From positions 1 through 64,000 of the forward strand of contig WFPC01000009.1 of assembly GCA_015487785.1 (NCBI GenBank): a stretch of 64,000 nt of DNA, written 5' to 3'. The notes beneath the pieces are model-generated. The model did not search any database. It saw only the letters and a list, made by a program, of their open reading frames with translations, and was not told the DNA's origin. This document shows, piece after piece, positions 46,283 to 64,000 of this stretch. Each line of letters opens with the position of its first letter. Within the stretch, counting starts at the first letter, position 1. Both the position numbers and the translations under genes were made by a program. The DNA comes from Gammaproteobacteria bacterium (lineage in GTDB: Bacteria > Pseudomonadota > Gammaproteobacteria > S012-40).

Positions 46283-47251
46283 TCAGGCTATCAAGTTAAC
46301 ATGGCTGACCAGGCTTCCTTCAACACTATCACCCAGCCAGACATCCTCTCCCAGACTCGCCCACGCCATTGCCCCCAGGCACGACCTTACATCTGCTGTT
46401 TGTCGCAACGTCAATACCAAATCGATCGTCAGGGGTGTATCCAGATAGAATTGAATCAGAAATATCAGTTTGTCACGTTGTTCACGATGGCGCAGCCATT
46501 GCTGAAACAACGCACTCTCATTGATTTCAATGTGTACCGCACACTTACCCATTCTATCCACCACTCGCTCGCCCAGTACGGCCTCGCCCAGCAGGGTGTT
46601 TTCACCCAGGTGTGCCTTTTGTTCCCTTGGAATACTTACCTGGCGTTCCACACAAGGCACGACATGCAAATCGTCGTTGGAAAAAACAGCTCGCAGCAAG
46701 GCCTCCAGTCCCGACAAAGAGCGGGGTCTCTGTGCAAGCAGGCCAAGATATGGCAACAACCCCCTTGGCTGTTCTGTTTTTTGTAACAGTGTGTCGTCAC
46801 CCAGGCCCAATAGACTGAACAAAACCTGCCAATAGTCGCTATCGTCTTCTTCCACCATCTGTTGTGCCAGGCGGTATTTCAGCCATGCCCGATAGAGCAA
46901 GGGATAGAGGTGATGATGGATGATGTCGAGAAAGTCGCGCCCAGCCGATTCCTCGTCCCAGGCTTCATCGAGCAGATCTTCGGTATAGAAAAGGGGTAAT
47001 GGCGAGGAAACCCCATACAACCCCATGAAGCTCGTCACCAAGGACAGTGTGCCGTTCTCACCCTGCTCCAGCCCGGTGATCTCCGTCATGGGGTAGTCGA
47101 GACTGAGTTCCGGACGGATACCAATGTCCTCGACCGGGCAGACGCGCAAACGGGACAACAGGCGCAGCGCCTGAAAGAATTCGTAGCAGCTTATATTGCC
47201 CTCTAGATCCTGGATCAGATCAATGGGCGATTGCCCAATCTCGCTGGCCAT
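46283..47251 (-). CDS. tssG: T6SS baseplate protein TssG
   Basis: 322 residues. TssG/ImpH/VasB family: YEFFQALRLLSRL near residue 25, then LYGVSSPLPLFYTEDLL, a characteristic family stretch. With TssF it forms the baseplate wedge that surrounds VgrG. The ATG at 47251 has GGAGAA upstream and overlaps the end of tssF by 37 nt. It is the last structural gene of the operon in this window. Confidence 0.95.
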   Translation of the reverse strand: MASEIGQSPIDLIQDLEGNISCYEFFQALRLLSRLRVCPVEDIGIRPELSLDYPMTEITGLEQGENGTLSLVTSFMGLYGVSSPLPLFYTEDLLDEAWDEESAGRDFLDIIHHHLYPLLYRAWLKYRLAQQMVEEDDSDYWQVLFSLLGLGDDTLLQKTEQPRGLLPYLGLLAQRPRSLSGLEALLRAVFSNDDLHVVPCVERQVSIPREQKAHLGENTLLGEAVLGERVVDRMGKCAVHIEINESALFQQWLRHREQRDKLIFLIQFYLDTPLTIDLVLTLRQTADVRSCLGAMAWASLGEDVWLGDSVEGSLVSHVNLIA

Positions 47252-48951
47252 TGGAATTGTTCTCCCGTGCTGGCTTCCACCAGGGTGGTTTGGGTATAGC
47301 AATTGATCGTAGTGAAACTACTGAATAACTGATCGGCAATGGCACCAAAAAGATAGAAGTCACCCAGGCTAGAGAAATGTTCCCTGCCTACGGTCACTTC
47401 GATGTTCTGCCCTCGCATGGGAATGCCCCCGATCAGGCAATCAGCGGGTTTCACCGTTATGGATCGAATACCTTCGATACGTTTGCGATTGGCCATTTCA
47501 CTCTTGCGACTTCCAGTGCCTGGAAAGACATACAACTCCAGCAAGGAGCGAAAATTTTTCGCATCGGCCAGGGGGAGATAATTCAGCGACAAATGCGATA
47601 ACAGACGCCACAGAATACCATTTCCCGCGGGAGACGGCACAGCCGTCGATGGAGACAGAATGTTTTCGAACTCCACCAGTTCGGAAGTCTGGCTGGTGGG
47701 ACGAGAAATGTCACCGGGGCGCAACCTGCTGGCCAAATTGCCATTGGAACAAACCAAGCTTACCATCAATGTTTCCTGTAGCGGTATGGGATAGCCTGGT
47801 GGATAGTTCAGGTTTAACTTGAGTATTTCATCGCCATTGTCCTCGCGGGCCTGGAAGCGTGCTTCATATACGGGTCCGCCTCCCTCTGCCAGGGCAAACA
47901 TGCCCAGAGATCCATACTCCAGTTTTTCACCACTACGTCGATTGTAACCAAGAACACGCCTGACCTGATGAATGGTATACTGGCCATTACGCGACTTTCT
48001 AGGCTTGATCTCGATTTCACTGCGACGTTGATCCAGGGTGACAGGCTCAGCCTCGTGCTCGAACAAATTGACCGCGGGTACCGCATGCAAAACAAAACGG
48101 TTTGTATCGATAGATGGCAAACGCAGAGAGGCCGTATTCAGATGAAGGCGCAGAATGAACTGCCCCGCATCCAATGTCTGCAAACCGTGTAGATCCTTCA
48201 GGTCGATAAAGAGAAACTTCTCTTTCAACATGAAGTATTCCTGGATCAGGCGGTAGGCGGGAAAACTGTGCTTGGGATAACTCAGCAAGGCCTCATTAGA
48301 AGAAAAACCCACCCTACTGACATGAGCGCGGGGTAATCGCCTCTCCACGCCGAGGCCATCCACGGTGGTAATACCCTGCAAGTGTTCCTGTAGCAACAGA
48401 TACAAATCAGAAGCTCCGGGATAATCTCCTGCCAGATACAGCCTCAGGCTTTGCGGCTGCCATTGTGAGAGGCTGGTGGCCGACAACTGGAATTGCAGTT
48501 CGATGATCGAGTGATTGGCTCCTTGTTCTTCCCCCCTGGCCGACAACAGGCGCAGTGGCAACACTTCCAGATCATAACATGTGGAGAAACGGCAACTCAC
48601 ACCATCAACCTCGCTGGAGTCGACACATGTCCCGGCAGGAATGCACAAGCGATCCTTGAGAATGTTCTTGGGAGGAAAAACCATTATGGTCGCCGCAGGC
48701 AGGGGACGCAGATAGTGTGGATAGATCAACTGCATCAGGGCCTGGGCGAAATCCGGCAAGTCATCGTCCAGGCGCTTTCGGATGGAGCCGGTAAGAAAAG
48801 CGACCCCCTCCAAGATGCGTTCCACATCTGGATCGGCACTGGGACCGGAAAGCAGTGGCGCCAGGGATGGGTGAGCCTCGGCAAAGCGTGCGGCCTGGTG
48901 ACGCAGGCGCTCCAGTTCACGATGATAATATGAAGCCTCTGACATTCCCAT
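47215..48951 (-). CDS. tssF: T6SS baseplate protein TssF
   Basis: 578 residues, standard for TssF/ImpG/VasA. It begins SEASYYHRELERLRHQAARFAEAHPSLAPLLSG, with the family stretches DVERILEGVAFLTGSIRKRLDDDLPDFAQALMQLIYPHYLRP and NGILWRLLSHLSLNYLPLADAKNFRSLLELY. It forms TssF2-TssG wedges. The start at 48951 immediately follows the tssE stop; an ATG two codons later is also possible. Confidence 0.96.
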   Translation of the reverse strand: MGMSEASYYHRELERLRHQAARFAEAHPSLAPLLSGPSADPDVERILEGVAFLTGSIRKRLDDDLPDFAQALMQLIYPHYLRPLPAATIMVFPPKNILKDRLCIPAGTCVDSSEVDGVSCRFSTCYDLEVLPLRLLSARGEEQGANHSIIELQFQLSATSLSQWQPQSLRLYLAGDYPGASDLYLLLQEHLQGITTVDGLGVERRLPRAHVSRVGFSSNEALLSYPKHSFPAYRLIQEYFMLKEKFLFIDLKDLHGLQTLDAGQFILRLHLNTASLRLPSIDTNRFVLHAVPAVNLFEHEAEPVTLDQRRSEIEIKPRKSRNGQYTIHQVRRVLGYNRRSGEKLEYGSLGMFALAEGGGPVYEARFQAREDNGDEILKLNLNYPPGYPIPLQETLMVSLVCSNGNLASRLRPGDISRPTSQTSELVEFENILSPSTAVPSPAGNGILWRLLSHLSLNYLPLADAKNFRSLLELYVFPGTGSRKSEMANRKRIEGIRSITVKPADCLIGGIPMRGQNIEVTVGREHFSSLGDFYLFGAIADQLFSSFTTINCYTQTTLVEASTGEQFQWPARLGNRPLI

Positions 48952-49368
48952 CTATTCCCGGGTTTCGATCACAGCCCGCCCATCGCCGGTAAGAACGAGA
49001 TCGTATTTCAATGATACTTTTTGTTTCCCGAAAGACAACTGTCCTACCACCTGAAAACGCAACACGCCGAAATCGCCTTTTTTCTCACAGGCCATCACCT
49101 GTATCTCGCTCAGCCTTGGTTCGTAATAGCGGGTCGTGTCGTGTATGTTACGGATCAGTTGCTCCATCTCATCGGGTGAAAGCATGTTCTGCAGATTGGC
49201 GAAATCCATAAGGCCGTAATCTTCCGCTATGAGTACGCTGCCCTTCTGGGTATTGTAAATCCGAGCCAAGTCGGCCAATACCGAATCCGTATAATCGGAC
49301 AGGGGTATATCATGCGACTGACCTCGTGACAGCTTTCGCAGCCGTTTGAGCAAACGTTCGCCGGGCAT
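48952..49368 (-). CDS. tssE: T6SS baseplate protein TssE (gp25-like)
   Basis: 138 residues. Lysozyme-like gp25 fold: DSVLADLARIYNTQKGSVLIAEDYGLMDF and the EPRLSEIQVM strand typical of TssE. It connects the baseplate to the first sheath ring and starts sheath polymerisation. It lies 52 nt downstream of the second hcp gene and directly abuts tssF. Confidence 0.95.
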   Translation of the reverse strand: MPGERLLKRLRKLSRGQSHDIPLSDYTDSVLADLARIYNTQKGSVLIAEDYGLMDFANLQNMLSPDEMEQLIRNIHDTTRYYEPRLSEIQVMACEKKGDFGVLRFQVVGQLSFGKQKVSLKYDLVLTGDGRAVIETRE

Positions 49369-49420
49369 TAACGCCTCTCGCGTCTGTAGGACAAAGAGGG
49401 GAAATACCCATCTGTCTGTT

Positions 49421-49903
49421 TCATGTCATTTGATCCCAGGCATCCTCATATTCTATGCCATCGGGCTCCCACAGCCAGGTAATTCTCTCATAGGTGAAAA
49501 AGACATCTTCCATGTGTCGCAAGGTTTCATTGCTACGGTCGAGCACATTGGGAACCCAGGGATGCATACGGGTGATCTGGGCGTTTTCCATCAAAATACT
49601 GAAATACAATTCCTCGCTACCCATATTGTCGATACGATACCAGTCCAACTTCACTTCGAGCAGGCGCTCCTCCTCACACAGCGCCTGGTAGAGCATGGGT
49701 GTGCTCTTGTCTGTTTCCTTGGTTATCATCATGGGACGATGGATGCGCCGACCGGCTGCCATGCCGCGTTGGTCGGTGGGTATTTCGACAGTATGATCAA
49801 AGGCTTGCACCAGGATCGTACCCTCTCGCTCTTCGATATCACAGGAACCCTCAATAAATCCTTGTTGCTCTCCGGTAATGCTCAAGTGTCCAGGCATCGG
49901 CAT
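49421..49903 (-). CDS. hcp: Hcp-family T6SS tube protein, second copy
   Basis: 160 residues. Hcp fold: starts MPMPGHLSITGEQQGFIEGSCDIEEREGTILVQAFDHTVEIP, with the H-R-P-M-M-I-T-K-E-T-D-K-S stretch typical of the family. Hcp hexamers stack inside the sheath and are secreted. It differs clearly from the other Hcp (57940-58455), for example in its shorter N-terminal loop and its C-terminus IEYEDAWDQMT. It lies 18 nt after the TssB-TssC fusion gene, between tssM and tssE. Confidence 0.92.
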   Translation of the reverse strand: MPMPGHLSITGEQQGFIEGSCDIEEREGTILVQAFDHTVEIPTDQRGMAAGRRIHRPMMITKETDKSTPMLYQALCEEERLLEVKLDWYRIDNMGSEELYFSILMENAQITRMHPWVPNVLDRSNETLRHMEDVFFTYERITWLWEPDGIEYEDAWDQMT

Positions 49904-49921
49904 AATGCATCACCTCACTCG

Positions 49922-51655
49922 TTAAGATTTCTCCAGTTTCCCCCGGTCGGTCAGGGAGAATGGACTCCCCATGTATTTCATATGGGGAGTTATGCTCAGA
50001 TTGATGAAATACCAATCTCCCTTCCCTTCCAGTTCCTCGATACGCAGCCGCGCTCTGCGCAAGGGCCGACGGGCCCTTACCGCCGTGGTGGGGTTGTCCA
50101 TATCCGACACGAACTGGCGCAACCAGTCATTGAGTTCCCGCTCCACCTCTGTACGGTTCTTCCATGAACCAATATGCTCACGCTGCATTACTTTGATATA
50201 GTGTGAAAAGCGATTGATTATCATCAGATAGGTCAGCTCCCCACCCAGACGATGATTCAGCGCGGCCTCCTTGCCAGGGGGTGAATCTCCGAATTGTTTC
50301 ATTTTCTGTATTGAGCGGGAACTATAGAATGCAACGGTCTCATCATGCTTGTGCACTGTCAGGGGAAGGAAACCAAACTCCACCAGTTCTGCGCTGCGCC
50401 TGTCGGAAACGAGCACCTCGGTGGGAATGGTGTTTTTCTTCTCCATCGGCAGACGTCCTACAAATTCCAGACCTTCCACCGCACCATCCTCCTTGCCCGT
50501 GATGTTGGCACACCAACGGTATTTCGCAAAGCTGTCATTGAGTCGGCTGGCAAAGGCAAACGCCGTGTTTCCCCACAAGGGCTCCTGTTCAGGTGACGCC
50601 TGATAATCGAACCCTCTGATGCGATCATCGCCCGTTTCATAGGGTTTGCGCAACAAGAAGCGTGGTAAGGTCAGAGCAATATAGCGGGCGTCTTCACTTT
50701 CTCGCAGACTGTTCCATCTGGCAAACCTGGGCTGTTGGAAATGGGAGCTCAGATCTCGTAACCGCGCAAGATCGGCATACGTTTCAACATCAAAGAAGGC
50801 AGGTGATGCCGAAGCTATGAAAGGAGCATGAGCCATGGCGCATACACTGGCGATTTGCTGTAACAGGCGTATGTCCCGTGCTCCAGGACCAAAGGCATAG
50901 TCAGCGATCAAGGCCGCATAGGGCTGCCCACCAAACTGACCGAATTCCGAAGTATAGACACGCTGATAAAGGGCCGATTGAGTGACATCGGCACAATCCT
51001 CGAAATCATCCGCAAGACTCTCCTTGCTCACATCCAAAACACTCAGACGACAATTTTCTTCATAACGTGTTCTCTGCGAGAGGAAGTGCAAGCCACGCCA
51101 AGCCGATTCCAGCTCTTTCCAGGCCGCATTACTCACCACGACATCCCATTGCCGGCTAAGCCGAAGGTCGATCTCTGTAACATAGGAATCGAAATCTTCT
51201 GGCGTTAAATCCTGGGCAGGCTTCCCAAAGCCGAGAGTTTTCATCAATTCCACACTCAAACTCTCGTCGATGGTCTTGTCTTCACTCAAGGACAACAAGG
51301 ACTCTCGTAGTTCCAGCAGTTTCCTAGTCAGCGGTATTTTCCACAATATATTTTCAGGCTCGAAATCTTGTAATGTCTCGAGCTCGACATCCACCGCCAG
51401 TTCGTCTTCGCCGTCGTTGTCCAGCAAACGATTGGGCAAGACAAGGTGTAGCTGTGGACGAATCCCAGACATCAGTGAATCGATATGACCGTGCTTGATT
51501 TCATGATAGCACTGTTCATCGATTTCCCGTGGTTCACTGGCACCGGAGAAATTTCCCATCACCAGTAAGCGAAATGGCAACTCTGTTTCCTCACTGCGAG
51601 AAGCATTCACTGATTTGTAGACCAGGTTGATGCGTTCTGCGAAGTTTTGTTCCAT
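49922..51655 (-). CDS. TssB-TssC fusion-like second sheath protein
   Basis: 577 residues. Residues about 1-145 align with the TssB of this same locus (ERINLVYKSVNASRSEETELPFRLLVMGNFSG versus ERVNIVYKSSLGDNTEEVELPLKLLMLGDYTG; RKLLELRESLLSL versus HRLLELRKALLAL). From about 180 it aligns with its TssC (SEFGQFGGQPYAALIADYAFGPGARDIRLLQQIASV; NRFSHYIKVMQREHIGSWKNRTEVERELNDWLRQFVSDMDNP; ending PHMKYMGSPFSLTDRGKLEKS). The separate TssC N-terminal arm is absent. Normal tssB and tssC are also present, so this is a paralogue. The ATG at 51655 lies 10 nt after the tssM stop; an alternative upstream TTG-type start overlaps tssM. Confidence 0.88.
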   Translation of the reverse strand: MEQNFAERINLVYKSVNASRSEETELPFRLLVMGNFSGASEPREIDEQCYHEIKHGHIDSLMSGIRPQLHLVLPNRLLDNDGEDELAVDVELETLQDFEPENILWKIPLTRKLLELRESLLSLSEDKTIDESLSVELMKTLGFGKPAQDLTPEDFDSYVTEIDLRLSRQWDVVVSNAAWKELESAWRGLHFLSQRTRYEENCRLSVLDVSKESLADDFEDCADVTQSALYQRVYTSEFGQFGGQPYAALIADYAFGPGARDIRLLQQIASVCAMAHAPFIASASPAFFDVETYADLARLRDLSSHFQQPRFARWNSLRESEDARYIALTLPRFLLRKPYETGDDRIRGFDYQASPEQEPLWGNTAFAFASRLNDSFAKYRWCANITGKEDGAVEGLEFVGRLPMEKKNTIPTEVLVSDRRSAELVEFGFLPLTVHKHDETVAFYSSRSIQKMKQFGDSPPGKEAALNHRLGGELTYLMIINRFSHYIKVMQREHIGSWKNRTEVERELNDWLRQFVSDMDNPTTAVRARRPLRRARLRIEELEGKGDWYFINLSITPHMKYMGSPFSLTDRGKLEKS

Positions 51656-51665
51656 GGCAATATTC

Positions 51666-54600
51666 TCAACGCCAGCACTGCTGTACGGTGGCTGGTGGTG
51701 CAAGCGGAACGGCATCCAATACCTTTATGACGGGCTCCTGCCCGCTGATAGCGTAATTCACATCTATACCGCGCACGCCTTCATTGACGAGCTGTGAAGC
51801 CTGATCGGGAAAGTCATCAGGCACGAAAACCTTGCGTCCATCGCGAAAATCCAAAAGGAAATTACTGAATCCCTTGACGCCTTTATAAGTTCTCATCAGG
51901 CGCAGTTGCCCTATATCGATACGCAGATTGACATCACCACACTCCTCCAGTGACCAGTTGAATTCCCGGCTCACCGAGTAGTTGTAATTTGCCAGGGTCT
52001 GCACTCCATTAGCACAGTGTAAATCGAGAAAAGTGGCATAGGGCGAAATACGGGCCCCCTGGTTGACACCCGAAGGCAAGGCATCGATTTTCACCGTAAA
52101 CTCATTACCCACGATGAAGCGCCCCGACGATGCGGCATTGATGAATTGTATGAATGGCTTTGTCCAGGACAGTTCATATTCTCCTACTCGCGCGGGGAGA
52201 TAACCTTTCTGGAAGCGTTTTCTCAAGAAAGCTCCGGCCTGTTCGCTGACGTATTTCCAGACGACCCCCTGCTCGCCAATCAAAAGATTTCCCAGCCTGT
52301 TTTGTTCTACACCCTCCACCTCGGCAAGCACATTGTCTTCCCATGCCTGCTGTAGATAACAGCCAGCTTCCTTTTCCATGTAATCATAGGCCAGCTTTAC
52401 AGGGCCGGTATAGAGTTGCCAGAATATGCTCGTACTGGGTGTCGGCTTGCCGATCAAGCCTTGCAAGGTTCTGATAGCCTTCCAGGCTACAGCCGGTGCG
52501 CCATCACCCGAGCTAGGATCGTCGGGCTTGTTGAACAAGGCCTTCATGGCGCCGTAGGACTGGCTGAGGGATTCGGCATTGAATACGGTCTCGGCCATGG
52601 CCTTGTTATAGGCATCAAGTGCCTTGGCGGCTTGCTCAAGCACCGCATCGAGTTCTTCCTGGCTCTTGCCATGCAGCTTTTTGGCCTTTTTGGCCGTTTT
52701 CATGCCCTGTTTTCCTGCCTTGGCGGCAACTTTTCCCGCGTTGCCAGCCTTACTGAGAATCTTCAAACCTTTCTTGGCGGCTTTCTTCAACAACTTCGAA
52801 TCACCCGAAGATTCCCCTCTGGAGAAATTCTGCATGGCAACGAAATAATCGATCAATCTCCTGGAGGGAAAGCGTTGTGTCTCTGCAAAGGGTTTGAGTT
52901 CCTCATGCATGCGAACCATCAAAGAGAAATAGGGATTGCTGGAACTTGCCATCTGTTCCAGGGCTGACAACCATTCCTTTCTATCCCGAAGAGTTTGTTT
53001 TCCAAGGTCAAAACGGGAGGAGAAATCGACCCAGCTCTTGATATAGGCTAAGCGATAATATTTCTCGAAATCCTGCTTAATAGTATCGAGTTCACCGGCT
53101 CCCTCACTAGCCTGGGCCAGCTCCGCGAGGAAGTTCTCGATGAAATTTTTCCCTTCCACTGTGAAAGCCGGCATAACTACGGGAGCATCCTTGACGGTTT
53201 TGCTTCCACCCCAGAAATCTTCTAAGGTAACAGGCTTTCCAGCCTGAGCATTGGCCCATTCGATGATCCATCGATAATCACCATGATTTCTTTCGATGAT
53301 ATGCAGTAAGGCGGTTTGAAGAGAGCGTCTCTCCTCCAACAAGTCTATGCTGGATGGATGCCAGCGCAGATAGGCGAGATAGAGTTCGTTGAATAGCAAG
53401 GCGGATTCCCGGTTCAATCCTGCACCGGTCAATAGAAGATAATCAATGTCTATGGGATCCAGTTTATCCAGTTTATCCCCTTCACCCTTCAGGCGGCCAT
53501 TCAACAAGTTGATGCGCCTGATCAGTCCGGCCGCCATGATACTGGTCTCACCGCTACGCAGTTGTCCTGCGATATTGTTCAGACCCTTGTCTATGGGAGA
53601 CAGAACGCTTGTTTCAAACAACTCCCGATAACGATTGCGCAATAGCCTTTGTTGTTGGGATATTTCCGTCGAAGCCGTCCACGGAACCAGCCATTGGTCT
53701 TCGGCATCGGCCAGGCGGCTTATGAGGCTTTTCATGCGATAGAGCGATTGCAGTCGGTGGTTGATGTCTTGCTGTTGAAGAATAATGGGATCCTGGTTAT
53801 GTCTGATTTCTTCCAGTTCCCCAAGATCTCGCAAAAACAACACGGTAAGACTTACCAACAACAATAAAGTGAGTCCACCACCAATACTGGTGGCATAACT
53901 GCGTACCGCACGTCGCATACGCTCAGCGCTGGGCAGGCTACGCAATAATCCCCTGTCGCCTGGCAACACCCGGGTGAAGAAATGATGTAGAAAAATCCCC
54001 TTGTCACGCAGTTGCCGTGAATGGGCAGGACCTGTCATCTGTTGGCTGGAACTGAAATAAAGTCCCCGTACTCGTGGGGTATCCTGATACGGATTTTCTT
54101 TTAGGGCTGTTTTGGCAAAAGTTTGCAAGCCTTGGCGCAGGCGGTTTATTTCTGACGGAAACTCGAGGATGCTTGGCGAGGGTGTGGCGGTGCGGTCCAT
54201 CAAAAGCAGGCGCAACTGTTTGAGGCGCTCTACCAAAATATCGAAAAAACGCCCTAGCAAACCTTCCACGTCTTGGGTCCGGTCCAATTCTTCGTTTAGA
54301 CAGCCCATGGCCTGCAGCAGACTCTTTTCCGGAAGGTAGCGACACCACTCGGTAAATCCATCCACCAAGTCACACTTGGTGATCATCAGGTAGATGGGAA
54401 GCTGGATTTCCAGCTTCTCCATCAGTTCGATGATGCTAGCTCTAACCTGGCGTCCTTCTTCTATCAGTTCTTCTTCGGAACAATTGAGCAAACGATCGGC
54501 AGCCACTACCAGAATCAGACCATTGAGTGGTTCTTTCTGTTTGTGGCGAGCCAGCATATCGAGTAAAACGCGCCATTCCTTACGATCTCGCCTGCTCTCT

Positions 54601-55139
54601 TCCGGTACCGCGTAACGACCGGCAGTATCGATAACGATGGCCTGATCGTATAACCACCATTCCAAATTGAGTGTGGAACCATCTGCGTGCTCTGGCAACT
54701 CGATTTCCGGCAACAATAGCCTGGCATTGCGCATGGCTGTGCTCTTTCCCGATCGGGGACGGCCGATAATCATATACCAAGGCAATACGTAGAGGGGGTC
54801 ACCGTGAACACGCAGTTGGGATTTCTTCAATGCCGCCAAGGCTTGCTTCCAGCCCTTGCGCAGGTCTTTCTCCAGTTGTTCCGGAGTCAATGCCTGTTCT
54901 TCATCTATGGGAAGAGCCTGCTCCTGTTGCAGAATACGCTTGACCTGGGCACGGGCACGCATACGAATGATGAGCTTGCGCACAAGGACTATGGTGATAG
55001 TGCTGCCGAACAGTACAGCGAGAACTATCAATGCTTCTTCCAAAGGGCGCTGAAAGAACAGAAAACCGGCAATCACCCCGGCAGACAGTAGGCCGAATAT
55101 CAGAAGATAAAACAAAAATTTGAGTATGCTTCTCAACAT
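51666..55139 (-). CDS. tssM: T6SS inner-membrane protein TssM (IcmF family)
   Basis: 1157 residues. Two N-terminal membrane segments (about 5-30 and 35-55), a cytoplasmic GTPase-like domain with Walker A GRPRSGKST at 126-134 and VIDTAGRY, a third membrane segment near 430-450 (LTLLLLVSLTVLFL), then a large periplasmic domain that contacts TssJ. A Lys/Ala/Gly-rich low-complexity stretch lies at about 780-830 in the periplasmic part. With TssJ and TssL it forms the trans-envelope complex. The ATG at 55139 is chosen because TssL ends 10 nt upstream. Confidence 0.96.
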   Translation of the reverse strand: MLRSILKFLFYLLIFGLLSAGVIAGFLFFQRPLEEALIVLAVLFGSTITIVLVRKLIIRMRARAQVKRILQQEQALPIDEEQALTPEQLEKDLRKGWKQALAALKKSQLRVHGDPLYVLPWYMIIGRPRSGKSTAMRNARLLLPEIELPEHADGSTLNLEWWLYDQAIVIDTAGRYAVPEESRRDRKEWRVLLDMLARHKQKEPLNGLILVVAADRLLNCSEEELIEEGRQVRASIIELMEKLEIQLPIYLMITKCDLVDGFTEWCRYLPEKSLLQAMGCLNEELDRTQDVEGLLGRFFDILVERLKQLRLLLMDRTATPSPSILEFPSEINRLRQGLQTFAKTALKENPYQDTPRVRGLYFSSSQQMTGPAHSRQLRDKGIFLHHFFTRVLPGDRGLLRSLPSAERMRRAVRSYATSIGGGLTLLLLVSLTVLFLRDLGELEEIRHNQDPIILQQQDINHRLQSLYRMKSLISRLADAEDQWLVPWTASTEISQQQRLLRNRYRELFETSVLSPIDKGLNNIAGQLRSGETSIMAAGLIRRINLLNGRLKGEGDKLDKLDPIDIDYLLLTGAGLNRESALLFNELYLAYLRWHPSSIDLLEERRSLQTALLHIIERNHGDYRWIIEWANAQAGKPVTLEDFWGGSKTVKDAPVVMPAFTVEGKNFIENFLAELAQASEGAGELDTIKQDFEKYYRLAYIKSWVDFSSRFDLGKQTLRDRKEWLSALEQMASSSNPYFSLMVRMHEELKPFAETQRFPSRRLIDYFVAMQNFSRGESSGDSKLLKKAAKKGLKILSKAGNAGKVAAKAGKQGMKTAKKAKKLHGKSQEELDAVLEQAAKALDAYNKAMAETVFNAESLSQSYGAMKALFNKPDDPSSGDGAPAVAWKAIRTLQGLIGKPTPSTSIFWQLYTGPVKLAYDYMEKEAGCYLQQAWEDNVLAEVEGVEQNRLGNLLIGEQGVVWKYVSEQAGAFLRKRFQKGYLPARVGEYELSWTKPFIQFINAASSGRFIVGNEFTVKIDALPSGVNQGARISPYATFLDLHCANGVQTLANYNYSVSREFNWSLEECGDVNLRIDIGQLRLMRTYKGVKGFSNFLLDFRDGRKVFVPDDFPDQASQLVNEGVRGIDVNYAISGQEPVIKVLDAVPLAPPATVQQCWR

Positions 55140-55149
55140 GGAGGAAAAG

Positions 55150-55824
55150 TCATTGCACCAATGCCAGAATGCTATCCAGGGCATCCACAATCCAGACGTG
55201 ATAAACTACAGCCGCCATTACCAGAATCACACTGGGAATACCCACCACATAAGGAAAAATATTGGTGCGAGGCCTGTACTGTCCCTTGATATTCGGGTCT
55301 TCCCCGGCATAGGCCATGGGGAAAAGCAGGGCTGTGTCCAAATCACGCCATTCTCGTTCTGGTAGCAGGCAGGAAAGGTTGAACTCCTTTATCTTCTCGT
55401 ATTGTTGCTGGTCTTCGAGTGAGAAATAACGCCCCCGGAACCCCATACCAAGACACAGTGCAAAGACTTCGCGCAGTTCGAGATCACTGCCTTTTTTGCT
55501 CAGCCCACCCAGGCGCTCATAGAATTGAGCGCCAGCGTTGGTAGTGCCGAAATAATGCTTTTGCAAGGGATTACGTTGCCAAAACGGCTTGTTGTCCCAC
55601 TCGGAGCACAGGACCTGTTCGTCTATATATGCTGCTACCGGGAATTTTGCCTGCAGACAAAGCTCATTGTCATATCCCTGGTCGAGGGCACATTGTACGG
55701 CCCTTTCCAGCAGGGTTTCGAAACGATTCCGTACTTCTTCATACTCAGGTTGTTCCGCTGACAGGGATTGCCGGAATGTCTGAACTTGGATAAAAACCGG
55801 AAGGAAGCAATCGACCAGTTGCAT
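55150..55824 (-). CDS. tssL: T6SS inner-membrane protein TssL (DotU family)
   Basis: 224 residues. Helical cytoplasmic domain (AAYIDEQVLCSEWDNKPFWQRNPLQKHYFGTTNAGAQFYERL is the family core) followed by a single C-terminal membrane segment (NIFPYVVGIPSVILVMAAVVYHV). Short form without a peptidoglycan-binding OmpA-like extension, so another protein must anchor the complex to peptidoglycan. One nucleotide separates it from tssK. Confidence 0.95.
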   Translation of the reverse strand: MQLVDCFLPVFIQVQTFRQSLSAEQPEYEEVRNRFETLLERAVQCALDQGYDNELCLQAKFPVAAYIDEQVLCSEWDNKPFWQRNPLQKHYFGTTNAGAQFYERLGGLSKKGSDLELREVFALCLGMGFRGRYFSLEDQQQYEKIKEFNLSCLLPEREWRDLDTALLFPMAYAGEDPNIKGQYRPRTNIFPYVVGIPSVILVMAAVVYHVWIVDALDSILALVQ

Positions 55825-55825
55825 A

Positions 55826-57211
55826 TTATTTTCTCACAATCACCAGTTCCACCTTGGCATCTTGTGGCGCCTCCGGCCACAACAGGCCAATGTCTCTTTG
55901 ACGTTCCACCGACAACCATTCCTCGTCGTGTACATCGAGCCTGACATAGAAGGTATTGGGGCGTCGTGGTAGCTCTGTGGGGGGCACGGGCACGTTGATC
56001 AGGCCAACACCCGGCAAGGAACGATCGGCCAGCACCTGCACTTTTTCCCGTGAAGCGAGCTTGGCCAGATTCAACAATGAATGCTGGGCCCGCTGTAGAT
56101 CGTGCTGGGTGGTGATCACCAAGTAAAAATCCACCCGTTGCTGGAAGAAATCAGCCGGTACATCAGCACTGAAACAGACCCCATCAAAGGGCATTTCAAC
56201 CAGATATTGTGGACCGATAGTAATCTCCCCCAACAAGCGGTTGATCAGTGAACAGGCTGCCTCGATACAATGCCCGATATCGCGGTGATCATAGGGCGGC
56301 AGCAGTCTTTCACCTTCCACTGTTTCCGCCAGCATATTGATACCTTCGGCAAAAGTGCTCATCTCGCCTATAAGTTCACGCAAAGTACCATACAATTCCC
56401 AAGGGTGTATGTCCCCTTTCTCTGTATAGTGAAATAATCTGGGGATGAATCGATTGAGGGTTCTAAGGGCCAGTTGATAACGCAGCAAGGTAGCATCGAA
56501 CTTGCCTCCACCTTGGGCAGAGGAACTGTAACTTCCAAGCTGGATGGCACGACCGGCCAGCTCATCGCGTAATTCTCGGATCTGGCGCAACAAATTGGGG
56601 GAAGCCGACAAGTTGATCACGGGGGGGATATAATTGCGGGCATAGCTTATCCCACCTTCACCGTGTAACACCTGGGCAATGGGAATAAGCCAATGGTCTT
56701 CCATGGCCTCGGTTTCCGTCTCCCAGACGATGCGCAGCACAAGACGTAGCGATTTCACCTGGGCAGATGGCGCCGATTGATAGTAGTCCCTGACCTCTTC
56801 CGGTTGCATGGTGCTGACATAGCGGGTGCGAACTGTCGAGAGATTTTCCATGCTCTCGACGACGGTAACATTTTCCTCATATGAATTCAGCTTTCGGATG
56901 CCTACATAAATTGTGAAGGGCTTGTCGGTTTCCACCCAGGCCTGTTCGAAGGAGCGGGAGACGATGCAGGCATTGTGACCGATTTGTGCCCAGGTACCAT
57001 CCTGGAACAGAAACTCTCCTGTTTCAATTTCACACAAGCGATGTTCCAGCGATGAACTTTGAAGCATCAAGTCACAAACCCCCCAAAAGTGGGGTTTCAA
57101 ATAACGCTGATAGGGTTGTAACAGTGATTGATGGTAGAGGTCGGTCTGTTGAAAGTGCTGAGGCTGAAGAAACAAGCCCTGGTGCCAGAAAATGGGTTTG
57201 ATACTGTTCAT
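55826..57211 (-). CDS. tssK: T6SS baseplate protein TssK
   Basis: 461 residues, TssK/ImpJ/VasE. It starts MNSIKPIFWHQGLFLQPQHFQQTDLYHQSLLQPY, a clear family signature, and ends with the receptor-binding-like C-terminal head that docks to the membrane complex. Trimeric TssK connects the TssFG wedges to TssJLM. It follows tssJ by 22 nt. Confidence 0.97.
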   Translation of the reverse strand: MNSIKPIFWHQGLFLQPQHFQQTDLYHQSLLQPYQRYLKPHFWGVCDLMLQSSSLEHRLCEIETGEFLFQDGTWAQIGHNACIVSRSFEQAWVETDKPFTIYVGIRKLNSYEENVTVVESMENLSTVRTRYVSTMQPEEVRDYYQSAPSAQVKSLRLVLRIVWETETEAMEDHWLIPIAQVLHGEGGISYARNYIPPVINLSASPNLLRQIRELRDELAGRAIQLGSYSSSAQGGGKFDATLLRYQLALRTLNRFIPRLFHYTEKGDIHPWELYGTLRELIGEMSTFAEGINMLAETVEGERLLPPYDHRDIGHCIEAACSLINRLLGEITIGPQYLVEMPFDGVCFSADVPADFFQQRVDFYLVITTQHDLQRAQHSLLNLAKLASREKVQVLADRSLPGVGLINVPVPPTELPRRPNTFYVRLDVHDEEWLSVERQRDIGLLWPEAPQDAKVELVIVRK

Positions 57212-57233
57212 GTCTGCAAAATATACCTGCCGC

Positions 57234-57878
57234 TCAAATTCCTTTGGGATCCAGTTGGGTGACTCGCTTGGTGCCGGTACGTCCCAGTTCGGCTCTAAGC
57301 ATCAGGCGATCGGGTGTGGCCTTGGCCTCATCGGAGATGAGCCCCAGCATGACCAATCCTTTCTCTACCAGGCCGCGTTTCGATGGTTTTGCCGGGATAG
57401 GAAACAAATGAACGTCATTGCCAGGCTGCAGGCCATAATAACCCATGATAAGGCCAACATATTGAGCGGACTGGGCACGGCTGAGCAGGATGGCCCGGCT
57501 TTCCCCCGGCTGCACGGTGATGCGACGAAAATGTGCAATGGTATCATCGATTTTTCCCTTGCTCAGCAGTTCCACCGCGCCTTCGCGGGTTGTGGCCAGA
57601 CCACTGAAGGTGTTGGGATCATTTAGTTGATAGACACCAATCACCAAGGTATGTGGGCGGCCATTGAGGGCATTGAGGTCCGCCGGAGCATCGATTTCGA
57701 TGCTGATAGCCCGCTCCTCGAACACCCAGTCTTCCGCTGCCACCACCAGCTTCGGATTGGAAGAGCATCCACTCAACATGTATATCAGCAAGAAAAGAAC
57801 TGCCCACCCCATGACAAACCGCTTCGCCAAGACTTCGCCTTCCATTTTTCGCTCACGGTGGCTCGTTTTCCTGCTCAT
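57234..57878 (-). CDS. tssJ: T6SS outer-membrane lipoprotein TssJ
   Basis: TssJ/VasD family. A signal peptide with lipobox L-S-G-C (WAVLFLLIYMLSGCSSNPK) leads a transthyretin-like domain (ISIEIDAPADLNALNGRPHTLVIGVYQLNDPNTF). It is lipid-anchored to the outer membrane and binds the periplasmic end of TssM. Two starts are possible: ATG 57878 (GGAG at 9 nt) and ATG 57845 (MEGEVLAKRF, shorter n-region, weak Shine-Dalgarno); I list the longer. It follows hcp closely. Confidence 0.93.
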   Translation of the reverse strand: MSRKTSHRERKMEGEVLAKRFVMGWAVLFLLIYMLSGCSSNPKLVVAAEDWVFEERAISIEIDAPADLNALNGRPHTLVIGVYQLNDPNTFSGLATTREGAVELLSKGKIDDTIAHFRRITVQPGESRAILLSRAQSAQYVGLIMGYYGLQPGNDVHLFPIPAKPSKRGLVEKGLVMLGLISDEAKATPDRLMLRAELGRTGTKRVTQLDPKGI

Positions 57879-57939
57879 TCCTTCAAACTCCAGGGGCACG
57901 GATGACCCCTTGCCACGGGCCATCCGTGTGACGCACAGA

Positions 57940-58455
57940 TCAACTGGTCTGGCGCACCCGCCAGTCATCACTCCCCTCGGTTCCTGCTATCTCGTGAATC
58001 CAGCGGATAGTGCTATAGCTAAACGAGACCTTTTCCAGGTGGGTGAAGTGGGCTTGGCTGGGATCCTGGCAATTGGGCATGATGGCCGTGATGTCGACAA
58101 TAATCGCACCTTCCAGTTCATGGGTAAAGTAATGCTCATGGGTTCCTTCGGACGAGGTGCGATACCACTCGATGCGACAGGTGAGGCTTTCACCGGTGAC
58201 CAGGGCCTGATAGAGCAAGGGGGACGATTTGTCGAATACCTTGGTCACGGTCAGGGGCTGATGTACCCTTTGTCCCGAGGGTTGCCCGCTCTGTAGGTCA
58301 CGAGGAATCATGATTTTGTGTTCGAAGGCCTGTACCATGAACTGGTCGTCGTGGCCTTCCTGATAGATATTGCCGACGCTGTCCTCCGATAGGGCACCTT
58401 CTGTAATCATACCTTGCGAGGCACCTTCAACCGACATGTATGCTGGAATGGGCAT
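57940..58455 (-). CDS. hcp: Hcp-family T6SS tube protein, first copy
   Basis: 171 residues. Starts MPIPAYMSVEGASQGMITEGALS, with FMVQAFEHKIMIPRD and HQPLTVTKVFDKSSPLLYQAL, all typical of Hcp. The ATG at 58455 has a very strong Shine-Dalgarno AAGGAGG, in keeping with a highly made tube protein. A leader of 94 nt separates it from tssH and holds a small GTCG-TTGCA-CGAC hairpin (58505-58517), so it may have extra expression control. Confidence 0.95.
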   Translation of the reverse strand: MPIPAYMSVEGASQGMITEGALSEDSVGNIYQEGHDDQFMVQAFEHKIMIPRDLQSGQPSGQRVHQPLTVTKVFDKSSPLLYQALVTGESLTCRIEWYRTSSEGTHEHYFTHELEGAIIVDITAIMPNCQDPSQAHFTHLEKVSFSYSTIRWIHEIAGTEGSDDWRVRQTS

Positions 58456-58549
58456 GGATTTTCCTCCTTTCTTTTTGGTGTGGTCATCATCCCTTGCAAA
58501 TGCAGTCGTGCAACGACAGGGCTAACAAGCCAAAATCTGCCTCGGGATG

Positions 58550-61153
58550 TTAGGCAACAAGCTCTGGCGCAAAGTTTCCCTGCTCACACAGCCCCACGTG
58601 CAAGCGTGTAAAGTCCTCGCCTTCATCGATGTGGCTCAAGATACAAGTAGAGATCATTGGCAGCAGATTTTTATTGACGATATGGTCGATATTCCTCGCC
58701 CCGGAATCCGTGTCGGTGCACCGTGCGGCGATACGCTCTATTACAAGCTCATCGTAGCTGAACTCGATTCCCTGGCTGTGCTGCAGACGCTCACCCACTT
58801 TATCCAGTTTGAGGCGAATGATATCGTGCAACACCTCCCCTTGCAGCGGGTAAAAGGGAATAATATTCATGCGGGCCAGCAGGGCCGGCTTGAAATGGCG
58901 CTGTAACTCTGGCCGAATGATTTCCACCAGCTGTTCCGGCGACACTGTTTCCCCTCGCCCGCAGCGTTGCATGATGGTTTCCGTAGCCAGGTTCGATGTC
59001 AGGAAAATCACGGTATTGCTGAAATCAATCTCCCTGCCCTCTCCATCGGACAAGCTGCCTTTGTCAAACACCTGATAGAACAGGTTCATGACTTCGAGAT
59101 CGGCTTTTTCCACTTCGTCGAGCAATACAACCGTATAGGGGCGTTGGCGTACGGCCTCAGTCAGAACACCACCTTCACCGTAACCTACATAGCCCGGCGG
59201 CGATCCGACCAAGCGTGAAACAGTGTGCTTTTCCTGAAATTCGGACATATTGATGATGGTCATGCAATGTTCGCCACCAAAGAGCTGTTCCGCCACACTG
59301 AGACAGCACTCGGTTTTGCCCACGCCACTGGGGCCAACCAGAAGGAACACTCCGAGGGGAGCTTGCGGATCGGTAAGGCCAGCCTTAGCCGCCTTGATAT
59401 GCTCGGCGATGGTGTGCAGGGCATGATCCTGCCCCTTGATGCGACTACCGATACGCTGTTCGAAATTTAGGATCATGTCGGCTTCATCGCGCAGCATGTT
59501 GCCTACGGGAATGCCGGTCCAGTCGGCAACCACCTTGCCAACCAACTCCGGCGTCACCTCGTGATGAACGAGCGGCTGATCGCCCGCGCAGGCATGCCAT
59601 TGCTGCTGTAGATCACGCATGGTTTGTCGCAACTCCTGTCGTTGTTGTGACGACAGGGCAGGATCCTGCTCCTGCTGCTGCAGGGGAACCAGTTGTTCTA
59701 CCAGGTTACGTTCCTTTTGCCAGCGCTCGTCCAGTTCATGGATCTCGGTTTCGATTTCCGCCAGCAAGCTCGTGATCTCGGTGTATCGCGCATTGCCTTC
59801 TTCATCTGTTCCCCGATCCCGTTCGATGGCGGCGAGTTCACGTTGCAGGCCTTCCCGTTGCCGCTCCAGTTCATCGATACGAGCCGGCTTTGCATGCCGA
59901 CACACCCGAACCCTGGCACATGCGGTATCCAACAAATCGACAGCTTTGTCCGGCAGTTGCCTGCCGGTGATGTAACGGTCGGCCAAATCCACACAGGCGA
60001 CCAGGGCATCATCACGAACATGAACCTGGTGGGCTTGTTCATAATGATCGCGCAGGCCACGCATGATCAAGATGGCATTATCCCTGTCGGGCTCCTCCAC
60101 CTTGACCGGCTGAAAGCGGCGCGCAAGAGCGGGATCTTTTTCGAAATATTTCTTGTATTCCGACCACGTGGTGGCGGCAATGGTGCGCAGTTCTCCACGG
60201 GCCAAAGCGGGTTTGAGCAGGTTGGCGGCATCACTACCGCCAGCGGCACTGCCAGCTCCAATCAGGGTATGAGCCTCGTCGATAAACAAAATCAGGGGTC
60301 TGGTTGAAGATTTTATTTCGTCTATTACCGCTGTCAGACGTTCCTCAAACTGTCCTTTCATGCTGGCACCGGCCTGCAACAGCCCCAGGTCAAGACTGTA
60401 GAGTTCCACTTGTTGAAGGATCTCCGGCACATCTTGCTGCACGATCTTCAGCGCCAGGCCTTCTACCACGGCAGTCTTGCCCACTCCTGGGTCGCCCACC
60501 ACGATGGGATTGTTCTTACGCCGCCGGGCCAAGATGTCGATCATTTTCCGGATTTCGCTTTCACGCCCGAAGACGGGATCGATTTTTCCCTCCCTGGCCA
60601 GGGCAGTAAAATTGATGGCGAATTGTGCCAGCGCCGAATCACCTTGCCCAAGAGTGCAAGATTGACTGGTCGCACTCGAGCGTTGTTCACAGGAACTTGC
60701 CGTCAATGTCTCGAACTCGCGCCCAAGCCGTTCCGGCGACAGGCGTTGCAGGCCCGGCAGCTCGTGGACGCCATAGCGCAAAGAACGGTCGGCCAGGGCC
60801 AGGAGCAAGACACCGGAACGCAGTTCTTCCAGCGCAAGATTCAACGAACCCAGCAACCAGCCATGCTCGAACCACTCCAGCAAGGTGTCGGCAAATACCG
60901 GCTTGCCCGGATTGCCCCGCTTGAGCTGCTCCAGCTCACGCTGCAGGTGTCCGCTCCAGTGGATGGGCTCGATCCCCGCGTCTCGCAGCAGCAGGGCGAT
61001 GTCGGCGGAAGGTTCCTGCAATAACTGCCATAGCATGTGAGCCACTGAAACCTCGTAGTGTCCCTGGCTCACGCACTGACCGGCAGCCGCCTCCAAGGCA
61101 CGATGGCAATACGGATTCATGCGCTCCAACAGGCGCTTGATATCGGCTTTCAT
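58550..61153 (-). CDS. tssH: T6SS sheath-recycling ATPase TssH (ClpV)
   Basis: 867 residues. N-terminal ClpN-like domain (about 1-150) that binds the contracted sheath, first AAA+ module with Walker A GDPGVGKT at 220-227 and [17 protein letters not shown], a middle coiled-coil domain (about 410-530), and a second AAA+ module with GPSGVGKTE near 608-616. Hexameric ClpV extracts TssC to disassemble the contracted sheath. It follows tssC by 24 nt. Whether it can act on the TssB-TssC fusion, which lacks a free TssC N-terminus, is an open question. Confidence 0.97.
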
Positions 61154-61177: not shown

Positions 61178-62656
61178 TCAGGACTTGTCCAGTTTTCCGG
61201 CCAGCGAGAGAGTGAAGCTCGAACCCATATATTTGAAATGCGGACGCACTTTCATTTCCACCCGAAACCAACCTGGATTGCCTTCCACATCCGACACCGT
61301 GATACTGGCTTCGCGCAGGGGTCGTCGGCTTCTCACCGCCGCAGGAGGATTGTCCTGGTCGGCGACGAACTGGCGAATCCAGGCATTGAGCTCCCGTTCC
61401 AGTTCGCTGCGGGTTTTCCAACTGCCGATGTGTTCCCGTTGCAACACCTTGACGTAATGTGCCAAGCGATTGACCACGAATAGATATGGCAACTCGGTGC
61501 CCAGTTTGTAATTGGTCTCGGCTTGCTTGGCTTCGGGGCTGGTGCCAAAAAATTTGGGCTTTTGCACGGAATTGGCCGAAAAGAAGGTGGCGCTGTCGCT
61601 ACCCTTGCGCACCGTCAGCCCCATGAAACCCTGTTCCGCCAGTTCGTATTCGCGGCGATCCGAAAGAACCACTTCAGTGGGTGGCATGGTTTTGATTTCA
61701 CCATTTTCAATATAGTTGTATACGGGAAGATCGGCAACGGCGCCGCCACTTTGAGGACCGATGATATTGGGGCACCAGCGGTATTTGGCAAAACTGTTGG
61801 TAAGATTAGAGGCGAAAGCGAAGGCCGCGTTACCCCAGAGAAACTTGTCGTGTTCTTGTTGTACGCTTTCTTCATAGTGGAATTCACGCACGGGGTTTTC
61901 TTCACCATAGGGCTGACGCAACAGAAATTTGGGCAAGGTCAGACCTACATTGCGGGCATCGTCCGATTCGCGAAAAGCACGCCACTTGGCGTATTGTGGG
62001 CCTTCGAAGATGGCCTCCAGGTCTTTCAGGTTGGGCAGGCCTTCAAAACTGTCCAGCCCGAAAAACTCGCTGCTGGCCGCGGCGATGAAAGGAGCATGCG
62101 ACATGGCGCTCACACTGGCCACCTGCTGCAGCAATGTGATATCGGGTGCCTTGGGTCCAAATTCGTAATTGGCAATGATGGCACCATAGGGCTGGCCACC
62201 GAACTGGCCATACTCAGCTGAGTAGACATGCTGATACAGTCCGGATTTGGTCACTTCGGGCGCATCCTCGAAGTCCTCCAGCAATTCATCCTTGGAGACA
62301 CTGAGCATTTCCAGTTTTATGTTCTCTCTGAAATCGGTGCGATCAACCACCATTTTCAGACCGGCCCAGGCTGCTTCCAGGGCCTGAAAGCGTTCGTTGT
62401 GCAGGATTTCATCCATCTGCACACTAATTTTTTGGTCGATTTCATGAATCAGCTCGTCCACTAGTTTTTGTTCGACTTTCTGCTGGGCCCGCTGCGGGGC
62501 CAGCAGGTCACTGATGAAGGCCTCCACCCCACGCCGGGCGATATCGTAGCCCTCATCGGAAGGCTGGAGGCGGGTTTCCTGCATGATCTGGTCGAGCAAG
62601 GATGATTCGCTCGTGCCGCCAGACTGGGCAGCGTTCTGTGGTTCCATTTCTGCCAT
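61178..62656 (-). CDS. tssC: T6SS sheath large subunit TssC
   Basis: 492 residues, standard length. The N-terminal arm (LLDQIMQETRLQPSDEGYDIARRGVEAFISDLL) that bears the ClpV-binding helix is followed by the core (SAEYGQFGGQPYGAIIANYEFGPKAPDITLLQQVASVSAMSHAPFIAA) and a C-terminus ending SSFTLSLAGKLDKS. With TssB it builds the contractile sheath. It lies 28 nt after tssB. Confidence 0.98.
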   Translation of the reverse strand: MAEMEPQNAAQSGGTSESSLLDQIMQETRLQPSDEGYDIARRGVEAFISDLLAPQRAQQKVEQKLVDELIHEIDQKISVQMDEILHNERFQALEAAWAGLKMVVDRTDFRENIKLEMLSVSKDELLEDFEDAPEVTKSGLYQHVYSAEYGQFGGQPYGAIIANYEFGPKAPDITLLQQVASVSAMSHAPFIAAASSEFFGLDSFEGLPNLKDLEAIFEGPQYAKWRAFRESDDARNVGLTLPKFLLRQPYGEENPVREFHYEESVQQEHDKFLWGNAAFAFASNLTNSFAKYRWCPNIIGPQSGGAVADLPVYNYIENGEIKTMPPTEVVLSDRREYELAEQGFMGLTVRKGSDSATFFSANSVQKPKFFGTSPEAKQAETNYKLGTELPYLFVVNRLAHYVKVLQREHIGSWKTRSELERELNAWIRQFVADQDNPPAAVRSRRPLREASITVSDVEGNPGWFRVEMKVRPHFKYMGSSFTLSLAGKLDKS

Positions 62657-62684: not shown

Positions 62685-63176
62685 TCAGGCGCGTGTCTCG
62701 TCGATGCCCAGCTCTTTCATGAGTTGCTCCCGGGCTGTTTCATCACTCAACAATTGCTGAATGGCCTTGCGGAAGGCCGGCACATTACCCAACGGTCCCT
62801 TGAGTGCAAGCAAGGCCTTGCGCAATTCCAGAAGACGATGCAGCTCTGGCACCTGGTTTGCGATGTTGTCCGGTGAAAAATCCTTCATTCCGGAAAACTG
62901 TAAAGAGATCGCCAGATCGTCATCGGCTGCTTCCTGCAAGCGGTTCTTGACCGTGATATCCAGGGTAAGGTTATAGCTCTTCATTACCTCGTCAAAATTG
63001 TCTTTGTTGATATTGACAGGCTTGCGTTCCTCCACCGGCTCATCCGATGGCTGACCGGTATAATCTCCCAGCATGAGCAATTTAAGGGGTAGCTCGACTT
63101 CTTCCGTGTTGTCTCCCAGAGATGATTTGTAGACAATATTGACCCGCTCCTTTGGGGCCACCGAACCATCGGACAT
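62685..63176 (-). CDS. tssB: T6SS sheath small subunit TssB
   Basis: 163 residues. Starts MSDGSVAPKERVNIVYKSSLGD, with ELPLKLLMLGDYTGQ and a C-terminal half containing LHRLLELRKALLALKGPLGNVPAFRKAIQQLL. It heterodimerises with TssC; each pair is one sheath protomer. It starts 3 nt after the tssA stop and has GGAG upstream. Confidence 0.97.
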   Translation of the reverse strand: MSDGSVAPKERVNIVYKSSLGDNTEEVELPLKLLMLGDYTGQPSDEPVEERKPVNINKDNFDEVMKSYNLTLDITVKNRLQEAADDDLAISLQFSGMKDFSPDNIANQVPELHRLLELRKALLALKGPLGNVPAFRKAIQQLLSDETAREQLMKELGIDETRA

Positions 63177-63179
63177 GGT

Positions 63180-64000
63180 CTAGTCTCCTCTTACGCTAAG
63201 TGCCAACAAGGGATCGATACGACAAAGATCCAGATAGGCCTGGTTTGTCTTTTCCCGCCAAGTGCTGTCGCTGCCGTGATTGTCACCCAGTTTCTTGCAG
63301 GCCCGGTAACGCAACTGCCGCGCATGGGCAAGCAGTCCTGGTTCCCACTGAGCGAGTTCACACTGCGCGTGCCGGGCAAGATGCTCTTCGAGCAGGCTCA
63401 AGGCCACCTCGGCCTCGCCTGTTTGGATCAAGAACTCGGCCAGGCTGCAATGCCATTGAAAACGCGTCCGTTGATCACCGGCTTTTTGCATCCCCCTATG
63501 GAACAGCTCCATGGCCCCTTCTCGCTCGCCCCTGGCGGCCAATTTTTTGGCCTGTTCCAAAGTCTCCTGCCAGGGAGCCGGCTCGTCGTCCCCTCCCGGC
63601 GACACCGGCGCCAACTTGTCACCATCTTGCTGAACCAGCACTTCGCTGTCCAACCATAGCCGCGTCTGTTCGTCGGCGAAAGGGCTGCCATCGGAAAATT
63701 TGAGTTGAGGGATAGTGGGCAAGCGGGACAGAAAGTGGCGGGTTTCCGCAATCACTGTTTCACGGGCTTGAACATAGTCCTTGCCCAGGGCTTGAAGGGC
63801 CTCGGCTGCCATGCGATGACCATCGAGCCAGAACGGCATGCGGGCCAGGCTTTGTTCCAACTCGGTCAACAACACTGCATATTGCCCTTGCTGCAACTGG
63901 GCCTGGGCTTTCTTGCGCCGCTCCGCCGGCGGTGGATTGACTTGGGTCAAGCCGTCACTGGAGGGAGGCGGCTGTTCCACCAGCATCCAGGCAGCCATGC
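63180..64000 (-). CDS. tssA: TssA-type T6SS protein, C-terminal part (runs off right edge)
   Basis: The frame is open to the right edge; about 273 C-terminal residues are visible. They contain the C-terminal region of VasJ/TssA-type proteins (RRKKAQAQLQQGQYAVLLTELEQSLARMPFWLDGHRMAAEALQALG; ALSLLEEHLARHAQCELAQWEPGLLAHARQLRYRACKKLGD). TssA starts and steers sheath and tube assembly. The internal ATG at 63998 is probably not the true start because the ImpA_N domain is missing. It directly precedes tssB. Confidence 0.88.
   Translation of the reverse strand, partial: MAAWMLVEQPPPSSDGLTQVNPPPAERRKKAQAQLQQGQYAVLLTELEQSLARMPFWLDGHRMAAEALQALGKDYVQARETVIAETRHFLSRLPTIPQLKFSDGSPFADEQTRLWLDSEVLVQQDGDKLAPVSPGGDDEPAPWQETLEQAKKLAARGEREGAMELFHRGMQKAGDQRTRFQWHCSLAEFLIQTGEAEVALSLLEEHLARHAQCELAQWEPGLLAHARQLRYRACKKLGDNHGSDSTWREKTNQAYLDLCRIDPLLALSVRGD

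Follow-up and report, generated by a model that had tools for sequence, protein, structure and literature searches.

Contraction and recycling of the T6SS sheath have been studied with engineered VipA/VipB mutants. In Pseudomonas aeruginosa, the sheath handshake consists of the N-terminal strand of TssB, the C-terminal strand of TssC and TssC strands 11/12, and domain 3 is built from the C-terminal helix of TssB together with two N-terminal helices of TssC (PMC5807055). ClpV binds the N-terminal helix of TssC (PMC5807055; PMC5048182), and R-pyocin sheaths work without domain 3 (PMC5807055). K223 and D333 of VipB are contraction-critical positions, and a TssB linker that is longer by two residues blocks contraction in Vibrio cholerae (PMC5797969). 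The first sheath ring of V. cholerae fits the same protomer as the rest of the sheath, and its tube is uniform down to VgrG (PMC5813253). Agrobacterium possesses TssC40/ImpD (Atu4340), a non-redundant second TssC that is essential for Hcp secretion (PMC3702570). Several sheath proteins are known from PVC and AFP, and a tube initiator from AlgoCIS (PMC8894135).

We analysed a stretch of 64,000 nucleotides (the window), in which a TssB-TssC fusion is encoded in a T6SS cluster. The fusion has the same domains, order and fold as canonical TssB/VipA and TssC/VipB (PDB 3j9g, 5mxn, 5urw, 5n8n), and it shares the handshake arms and the aligned contraction residues with the canonical sheath. However, it is one chain where the canonical sheath has two, it lacks TssC residues 1-~66 (the ClpV handle) and the TssB KGPL/domain-3 helix, and its ortholog identity is about 24 and 36 points below those of canonical TssC and TssB, respectively. 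A one-chain sheath subunit is also found in phages, pyocins and eCIS. PVC/AFP-type eCIS and AlgoCIS (Alg5/Alg7) resemble the fusion system further in having more than one sheath or tube paralogue per machine, whereas the fusion has T6SS TssB and TssC sequence, belongs to a T6SS anchored in the membrane by TssJKLM and has a place in the tail that is a prediction. ImpD/TssC40 is likewise a TssC-like second gene upstream of tssE beside normal tssB-tssC, but it has no TssB half, its loci (L146/L147) have no second hcp, and it lies on a different branch of the tree. A search confined to the open-access literature gave no description of a naturally occurring TssB-TssC fusion within a T6SS cluster.

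Two sheath/tube sets in one T6SS cluster

The cluster order is tssA-B-C-clpV-hcp1-J-K-L-M-fusion-hcp2-E-F-G, and all features given here are on the minus strand. tssA (63180..63998) is cut by the window end and encodes 555 aa in the contig. It is followed by canonical tssB (62685..63176; 163 aa, with the KGPLGN motif), canonical tssC (61178..62656; 492 aa, with the N-terminal SLLDQIM handle), clpV (tssH, 58550..61153) and the first tube gene, hcp1 (57940..58455). Then come tssJ (57234..57971, ORF limits; the true start is internal), tssK (55826..57211), tssL (55150..55824) and tssM (51666..55190). The fusion starts 10 bases past the end of tssM and ends 18 bases before hcp2, the second tube gene (49421..49903; 160 aa). 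Beyond hcp2 are tssE (48952..49368), which encodes the gp25-like sheath-initiator of the baseplate, tssF (47215..48951), which is matched by homologues in other loci, and tssG (46283..47302, ORF limits; the true start may be internal). The cluster contains two complete sheath/tube sets, against a single set of tssJ-M and tssE-G. The labels of tssA, tssB, tssC, tssE and both hcp genes come from Pfam and NCBIfam, and the remaining labels (clpV among them) come from similarity between loci and from reading of the window proteins that were used as references. The initial annotation had placed the fusion between tssM and tssE; this order was borne out, with hcp2 standing between the fusion and tssE. 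It had missed that a second hcp gene accompanies the fusion in 15 of 15 loci.

No vgrG or PAAR gene was recognised in the examined surroundings of the T6SS (window 46283-63998), so other parts of the genome may encode its spike and effectors. The T6SS is flanked by FKBP, EamA, GST and housekeeping genes. Two genes past tssA, just outside the right end of the window (L179:4139-7988), resemble by eye the two-partner secretion genes, an ShlB-type transporter and a TPS-domain exoprotein, that flank a distant clpV in L180 and L181 (genomes G383 and G384; Pfam).

The fusion ORF (49922-51655) encodes a complete TssB-TssC fusion of 577 aa. The frame is open from 51715, which gives a 597-aa reading; the ATG at 51655 was taken as the start because it lies 3' of the tssM stop and agrees with the N-termini of homologues. 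In the 597-aa numbering, Pfam identified T6SS_VipA (PF05591) at residues 23-161 (E 2.5e-27, 96 bits, cut-off 24), VipB (PF05943) at residues 176-470 (E 7e-104, 347.5 bits, cut-off 27) and VipB_2 (PF18945) at residues 484-589 (E 1.6e-35, 122.1 bits, cut-off 27). The TssB/VipA-like half thus occupies 51233..51649, the TssC/VipB N-terminal sheath domain 50306..51190, and the gpW/gp25-like VipB_2 domain 49949..50266. In NCBIfam, the fusion scored 497.2 bits with TIGR03355 (TssC; cut-off 271.5), whereas with TIGR03358 (TssB equivalog) the window fusion scored 96.9 bits against 97.25, about one third of a bit short, and the other fusions scored 63.6-94.6 bits. These profiles agree with the initial annotation, which had read the N-terminal part as TssB-related, the remainder as TssC-related and the whole as a genuine fusion beside normal tssB and tssC. 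It had also described the halves as most like the copies of the same locus. The resemblance itself stands, with 33% identity to the TssB and 52% to the TssC of the locus, but many other TssC proteins reach 51-53%, and in trees the fusion groups with other fusions and not with its neighbours.

The AlphaFold model of the fusion alone, built from an input alignment of fusions, TssBs and TssCs, is confident (pLDDT 89.6, pTM 0.91). The best Foldseek matches of this model are solved VipB chains (E 6e-39, TM 0.87 on the VipB chain); the match is to the TssC chain, the two-chain entry not being scorable for the TssB and TssC halves together. Searched against the whole genome, the fusion matched only its own gene and, in its own cluster, tssB and tssC. 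An assembly artefact was rejected because the fusion is intact in 15 genomes, and in G589 it lies on a contig of 3.5 Mb. The fusion is real, conserved and rare.

Handshake arms, junction and ClpV handle

It had been supposed that the covalent junction replaces the handshake. The published sheath anatomy and the alignments contradict this: the TssB N-terminal arm and the TssC C-terminal arm stay free and are among the best-conserved parts of the fusion. The N-terminal arm (ERINLVYKSVN, 51605..51637), the handshake donor strand, is recognisable in the fusion as ERINLVYKS and forms strand 12-17 in the model; the C-terminal arm is recognisable as KYMGSPFSL...GKLEK, and its strand spans model residues 568-575 (49931..49954). 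The handshake acceptor region is in the VipB_2 domain, and residues 530-556 are the best-conserved long segment, with 71% conservation among fusions. Identity between fusion and canonical proteins is 51-61% in four segments, namely the N-arm, the C-arm end, the D333 segment and the acceptor. On the other hand, the segment of the TssB C-terminal helix is 17% conserved among fusions versus 79% among co-resident TssBs, and a KGPL-like motif is found in 0/15 fusions versus 88/113 canonical TssBs. The second supposition, that the ClpV handle is gone, held: according to the alignment, TssC residues 1-~66, including SLLDQIM (an LLDxI-type ClpV handle), are missing in the fusions, and with them the TssC N-terminal helix. 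All co-resident TssCs inspected have this ClpV-binding helix. At the junction (residues 120-155, 51191..51298), a short TssB C-terminal region runs into a TssC helix in the alignment. The junction sits in domain 3, and what it replaces is the ClpV recycling domain, not the handshake. Because the handle is missing, the fusion is predicted to escape extraction by ClpV.

The contraction-critical positions were located by alignment to 3j9g. In the window fusion and most others, D stands at the position of VipB D333, with E in G371 and G617; the K223 position holds R in the window fusion, and R or K among the fusions aligned. These are retentions or conservative replacements. The linker from the N-arm to ELPF has 17 residues in window-type fusions, which is the length in canonical TssB, including the co-resident TssB. 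It has 13-15 residues, 2-4 fewer, in the other clade (G371, G383, G384, G589, G596, G601, G617, G624 and G708). With the TssB N-arm, TssC C-arm and acceptor domain all kept, incorporation of the fusion into a sheath lattice should be possible. The modelled fold appears competent for such a lattice, and assembly into a ring or helix around a tube is a predicted capacity.

Distribution, origin and evolutionary rate

A complete open fusion is present in 15 genomes: that of the window (G000), G009, G371, G378-G381, G383, G384, G589, G596, G601, G617, G624 and G708. In G382, the fusion is split over two contigs. The carriers are some marine and groundwater bacteria, and the named records among them are gammaproteobacterial MAGs labelled Ectothiorhodospiraceae, Pseudomonadales, Colwellia and Oleispira. 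The fusion is rare; among 369 evenly sampled genomes of the class, only the genome of the window and G371 have it. Apparent fusions with an open frame >650 proved to be separate ORFs with stops, and one in L092 was produced by a masked run of Ns that bridges two genes.

The neighbourhood is constant. The fusion lies between tssM and a second hcp in 15 of 15 genomes, and hcp2 follows it directly in every locus. tssE, then tssF-G, comes after hcp2 wherever the contig reaches (the tssE of G371 was found by tblastn, and the contig of G380 ends within hcp2). Normal tssB and tssC are present as a pair, accompanied by hcp1 in nearly every case, in the same cluster or, where contigs are broken, in the same genome; the exceptions are G383 and G384, which are incomplete records, and G381, where the pair is in a different cluster. 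We considered that the fusion replaces tssB-tssC in the Colwellia/Oleispira type, as the MAG G383, with only one match, suggested. This was dropped, since six relatives also carry a normal tssC in their genomes, in five cases on the contig of the fusion. clpV is inside the fusion cluster in G000, G009, G371 and G380, and absent from it in G378, G379 and the G589 type, whose genomes have a ClpV-like gene elsewhere. The ClpV-like gene of G379 is interrupted by an in-frame stop. In the clusters without clpV (L062/L187 of G378, L184 of G379 and L226-L231), the co-resident TssC keeps its ClpV handle.

In the trees, the TssC halves of the fusions form one clade (support 88, or 95 without G371), and so do the TssB halves (support 97). 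The Hcp2 proteins of fusion loci also form one clade (support 93), adjacent to ordinary Hcps from clusters with the order B-C-Hcp-E-F-G. The co-resident TssCs group in a separate clade, as do the Hcp1s (support 100); the co-resident TssC of G371 is the one that falls outside. These clades point to a single origin for both halves and Hcp2, and to a fusion/hcp2 layout that is old and inherited as a unit. A recent duplication of the neighbouring tssB-tssC was rejected, because the fusions are one clade and the co-resident TssCs another in six of seven cases. The simplest reading is that the B and C of a B-C-Hcp-E-F-G block were fused once and that the separate A-B-C-Hcp1 block provides the main set; the branches are long, and the exact attachment point of the fusion clade is unsure.

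Across 12 genomes, mean ortholog identity is 46.7% for the C half of the fusion and 27.4% for the B half, versus 70.4% for co-resident TssC and 63.0% for co-resident TssB. The fusion is less conserved than the co-resident pair in 66 of 66 genome pairs. The values in the same genomes are 46.2% for TssK, 44.9% for TssF and 29.5% for TssE. In one pair (G378/G382), the dN/dS estimates were 0.035 (C half) and 0.094 (B half); they are indicative only, since dS is saturated. The fusion appears to evolve under purifying selection at the rate of a baseplate protein and not at that of TssB/TssC. This suggests that it is constrained, but unlike a polymeric sheath.

Another family of single-chain proteins, of ~500-590 aa, also has a VipA-like part followed by a VipB-like part (L142:9067-10578, L141:1342-3096, L143:2089-3858, L144:203-1909, L145:8637-10184, L189:2441-3994 and L264-L273). 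These orphan fusions differ from the window fusion in that those tested had no VipB_2 match and in that they form separate deep branches. They are near full-length in about 11 of the 369 sampled genomes of the class. No recognised T6SS genes are nearby in the orphan loci examined; their neighbours are TPR, PP2C phosphatase, CBS, peroxiredoxin and hydrogenase-maturation (hypD/hypF) genes. Because these orphans exist, the bare TssB-TssC domain order is not unique to the fusion of T6SS clusters.

A candidate starter ring and its alternatives

The fusion is probably a special ring of the T6SS tail rather than a spare copy. Our tentative proposal, which we hold at slightly under an even chance, is that it is a low-copy, ClpV-resistant sheath protomer that would form, with Hcp2, dedicated starter rings at the baseplate. 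The free arms, the lost handle, the invariable hcp2, the sharing of a single tssJ-K-L-M-E-F-G set and the baseplate-like rate support this role. Together, the fusion and Hcp2 would build a limited, specialised section of the tail, most probably one or more rings next to the baseplate. Hcp2 would lie on VgrG. Below, the fusion would insert its arms into TssE; above, the first normal TssB-TssC ring would donate its arms to the acceptor strands of the fusion. Such few-copy rings would bridge TssE-F-G to the TssB-TssC/Hcp1 polymer. ClpV would not extract the fusion, which has no handle, and the fusion could stay behind on the baseplate while the main sheath is recycled. It is possible, with somewhat less assurance, that these loci represent a T6SS subtype whose composite tail has one membrane complex, one baseplate and two sheath/tube pairs, in which a phage-like, one-chain ClpV-resistant sheath ring and its own Hcp ring would start the tail, the ordinary recyclable TssB-TssC/Hcp1 polymer would continue it, and the starter could stay for repeated firing.

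Several points weigh against a starter. Hcp2 carries no change of the kind expected in an initiator and clusters with the Hcps of ordinary main tubes, and the faster evolution of the fusion might also reflect a spare tail in relaxed use. The uniform first ring and tube of V. cholerae mean that a starter is not needed in general (PMC5813253). The adjacency of the fusion to tssE counts for little and is not independent evidence, because B-C-Hcp-E-F-G is a common order in other T6SSs and may have placed the fusion and Hcp2 there by descent.

The chief rival is a complete alternative tail, in which the fusion would form a full single-chain sheath on an Hcp2 tube, with the same membrane complex and baseplate. 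Such a tail would serve under different conditions or deliver different effectors, and would fire once, since ClpV could not recycle it. The fusion and Hcp2 are indeed a matched sheath/tube pair of one origin, the arms and the aligned contraction residues are kept, the window-type clade retains the 17-residue TssB linker, and R-pyocin sheaths function without domain 3 (PMC5807055). However, the fusion evolves much faster than co-resident TssB/TssC in all 66 pairs, at a baseplate-like rate; the linker of the second clade is 2-4 residues under the canonical length, and a long non-recyclable sheath would be costly. We consider an alternative tail unlikely, although it comes first among the rivals.

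Next comes the reading of the fusion as a minor component of the normal sheath, either mixed into it or placed at its distal end as a cap, which would confer ClpV resistance or limit length. Both arms and the acceptor domain are canonical-like at the 51-61% noted above, and some non-contractile V. cholerae mutant sheaths co-assembled with wild-type extended sheath (PMC5797969). This reading leaves the obligatory partner Hcp2 unexplained. Moreover, the distal cap role usually belongs to TssA/TagA-type proteins, and tssA is present. We regard a minor subunit or cap as quite improbable, and the evidence favours a baseplate-proximal role over a cap.

A degenerating duplicate, in which loss of the intergenic stop fused a tssB-tssC pair that had no needed function, would fit the faster evolution relative to co-resident TssB/TssC and the loss of the domain 3 motifs. 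It is already largely refuted by conservation and has very little probability left: the fusion is open in 15 of 15 genomes, has a single deep origin, is always kept with hcp2, gave low dN/dS estimates in one pair and has a confident fold. Finally, an ordinary ImpD/TssC40-type second TssC with the fused form as its norm has in its favour that this type, too, is a second, non-redundant TssC gene close to tssE (PMC3702570), but it is scarcely tenable, and the distinction from ImpD-type TssC2 that the initial annotation had drawn is supported, since the ImpD-type protein tested (neighbour G002, L146) has no VipA domain, the type is placed elsewhere in the TssC tree, and no second hcp is present in L146 or L147.

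In summary, the fusion is a natural sheath protomer in which the handshake appears to be kept and the recycling domain lost, and it is retained beside the normal protomer in a single machine. With it, the purpose of domain 3 and of the two-chain design can be tested in a natural system. Whether the first and later rings of a T6SS differ, and what nucleates sheath assembly, can be probed in the same way. The cluster also shows that a single T6SS locus can maintain two sheath/tube pairs.
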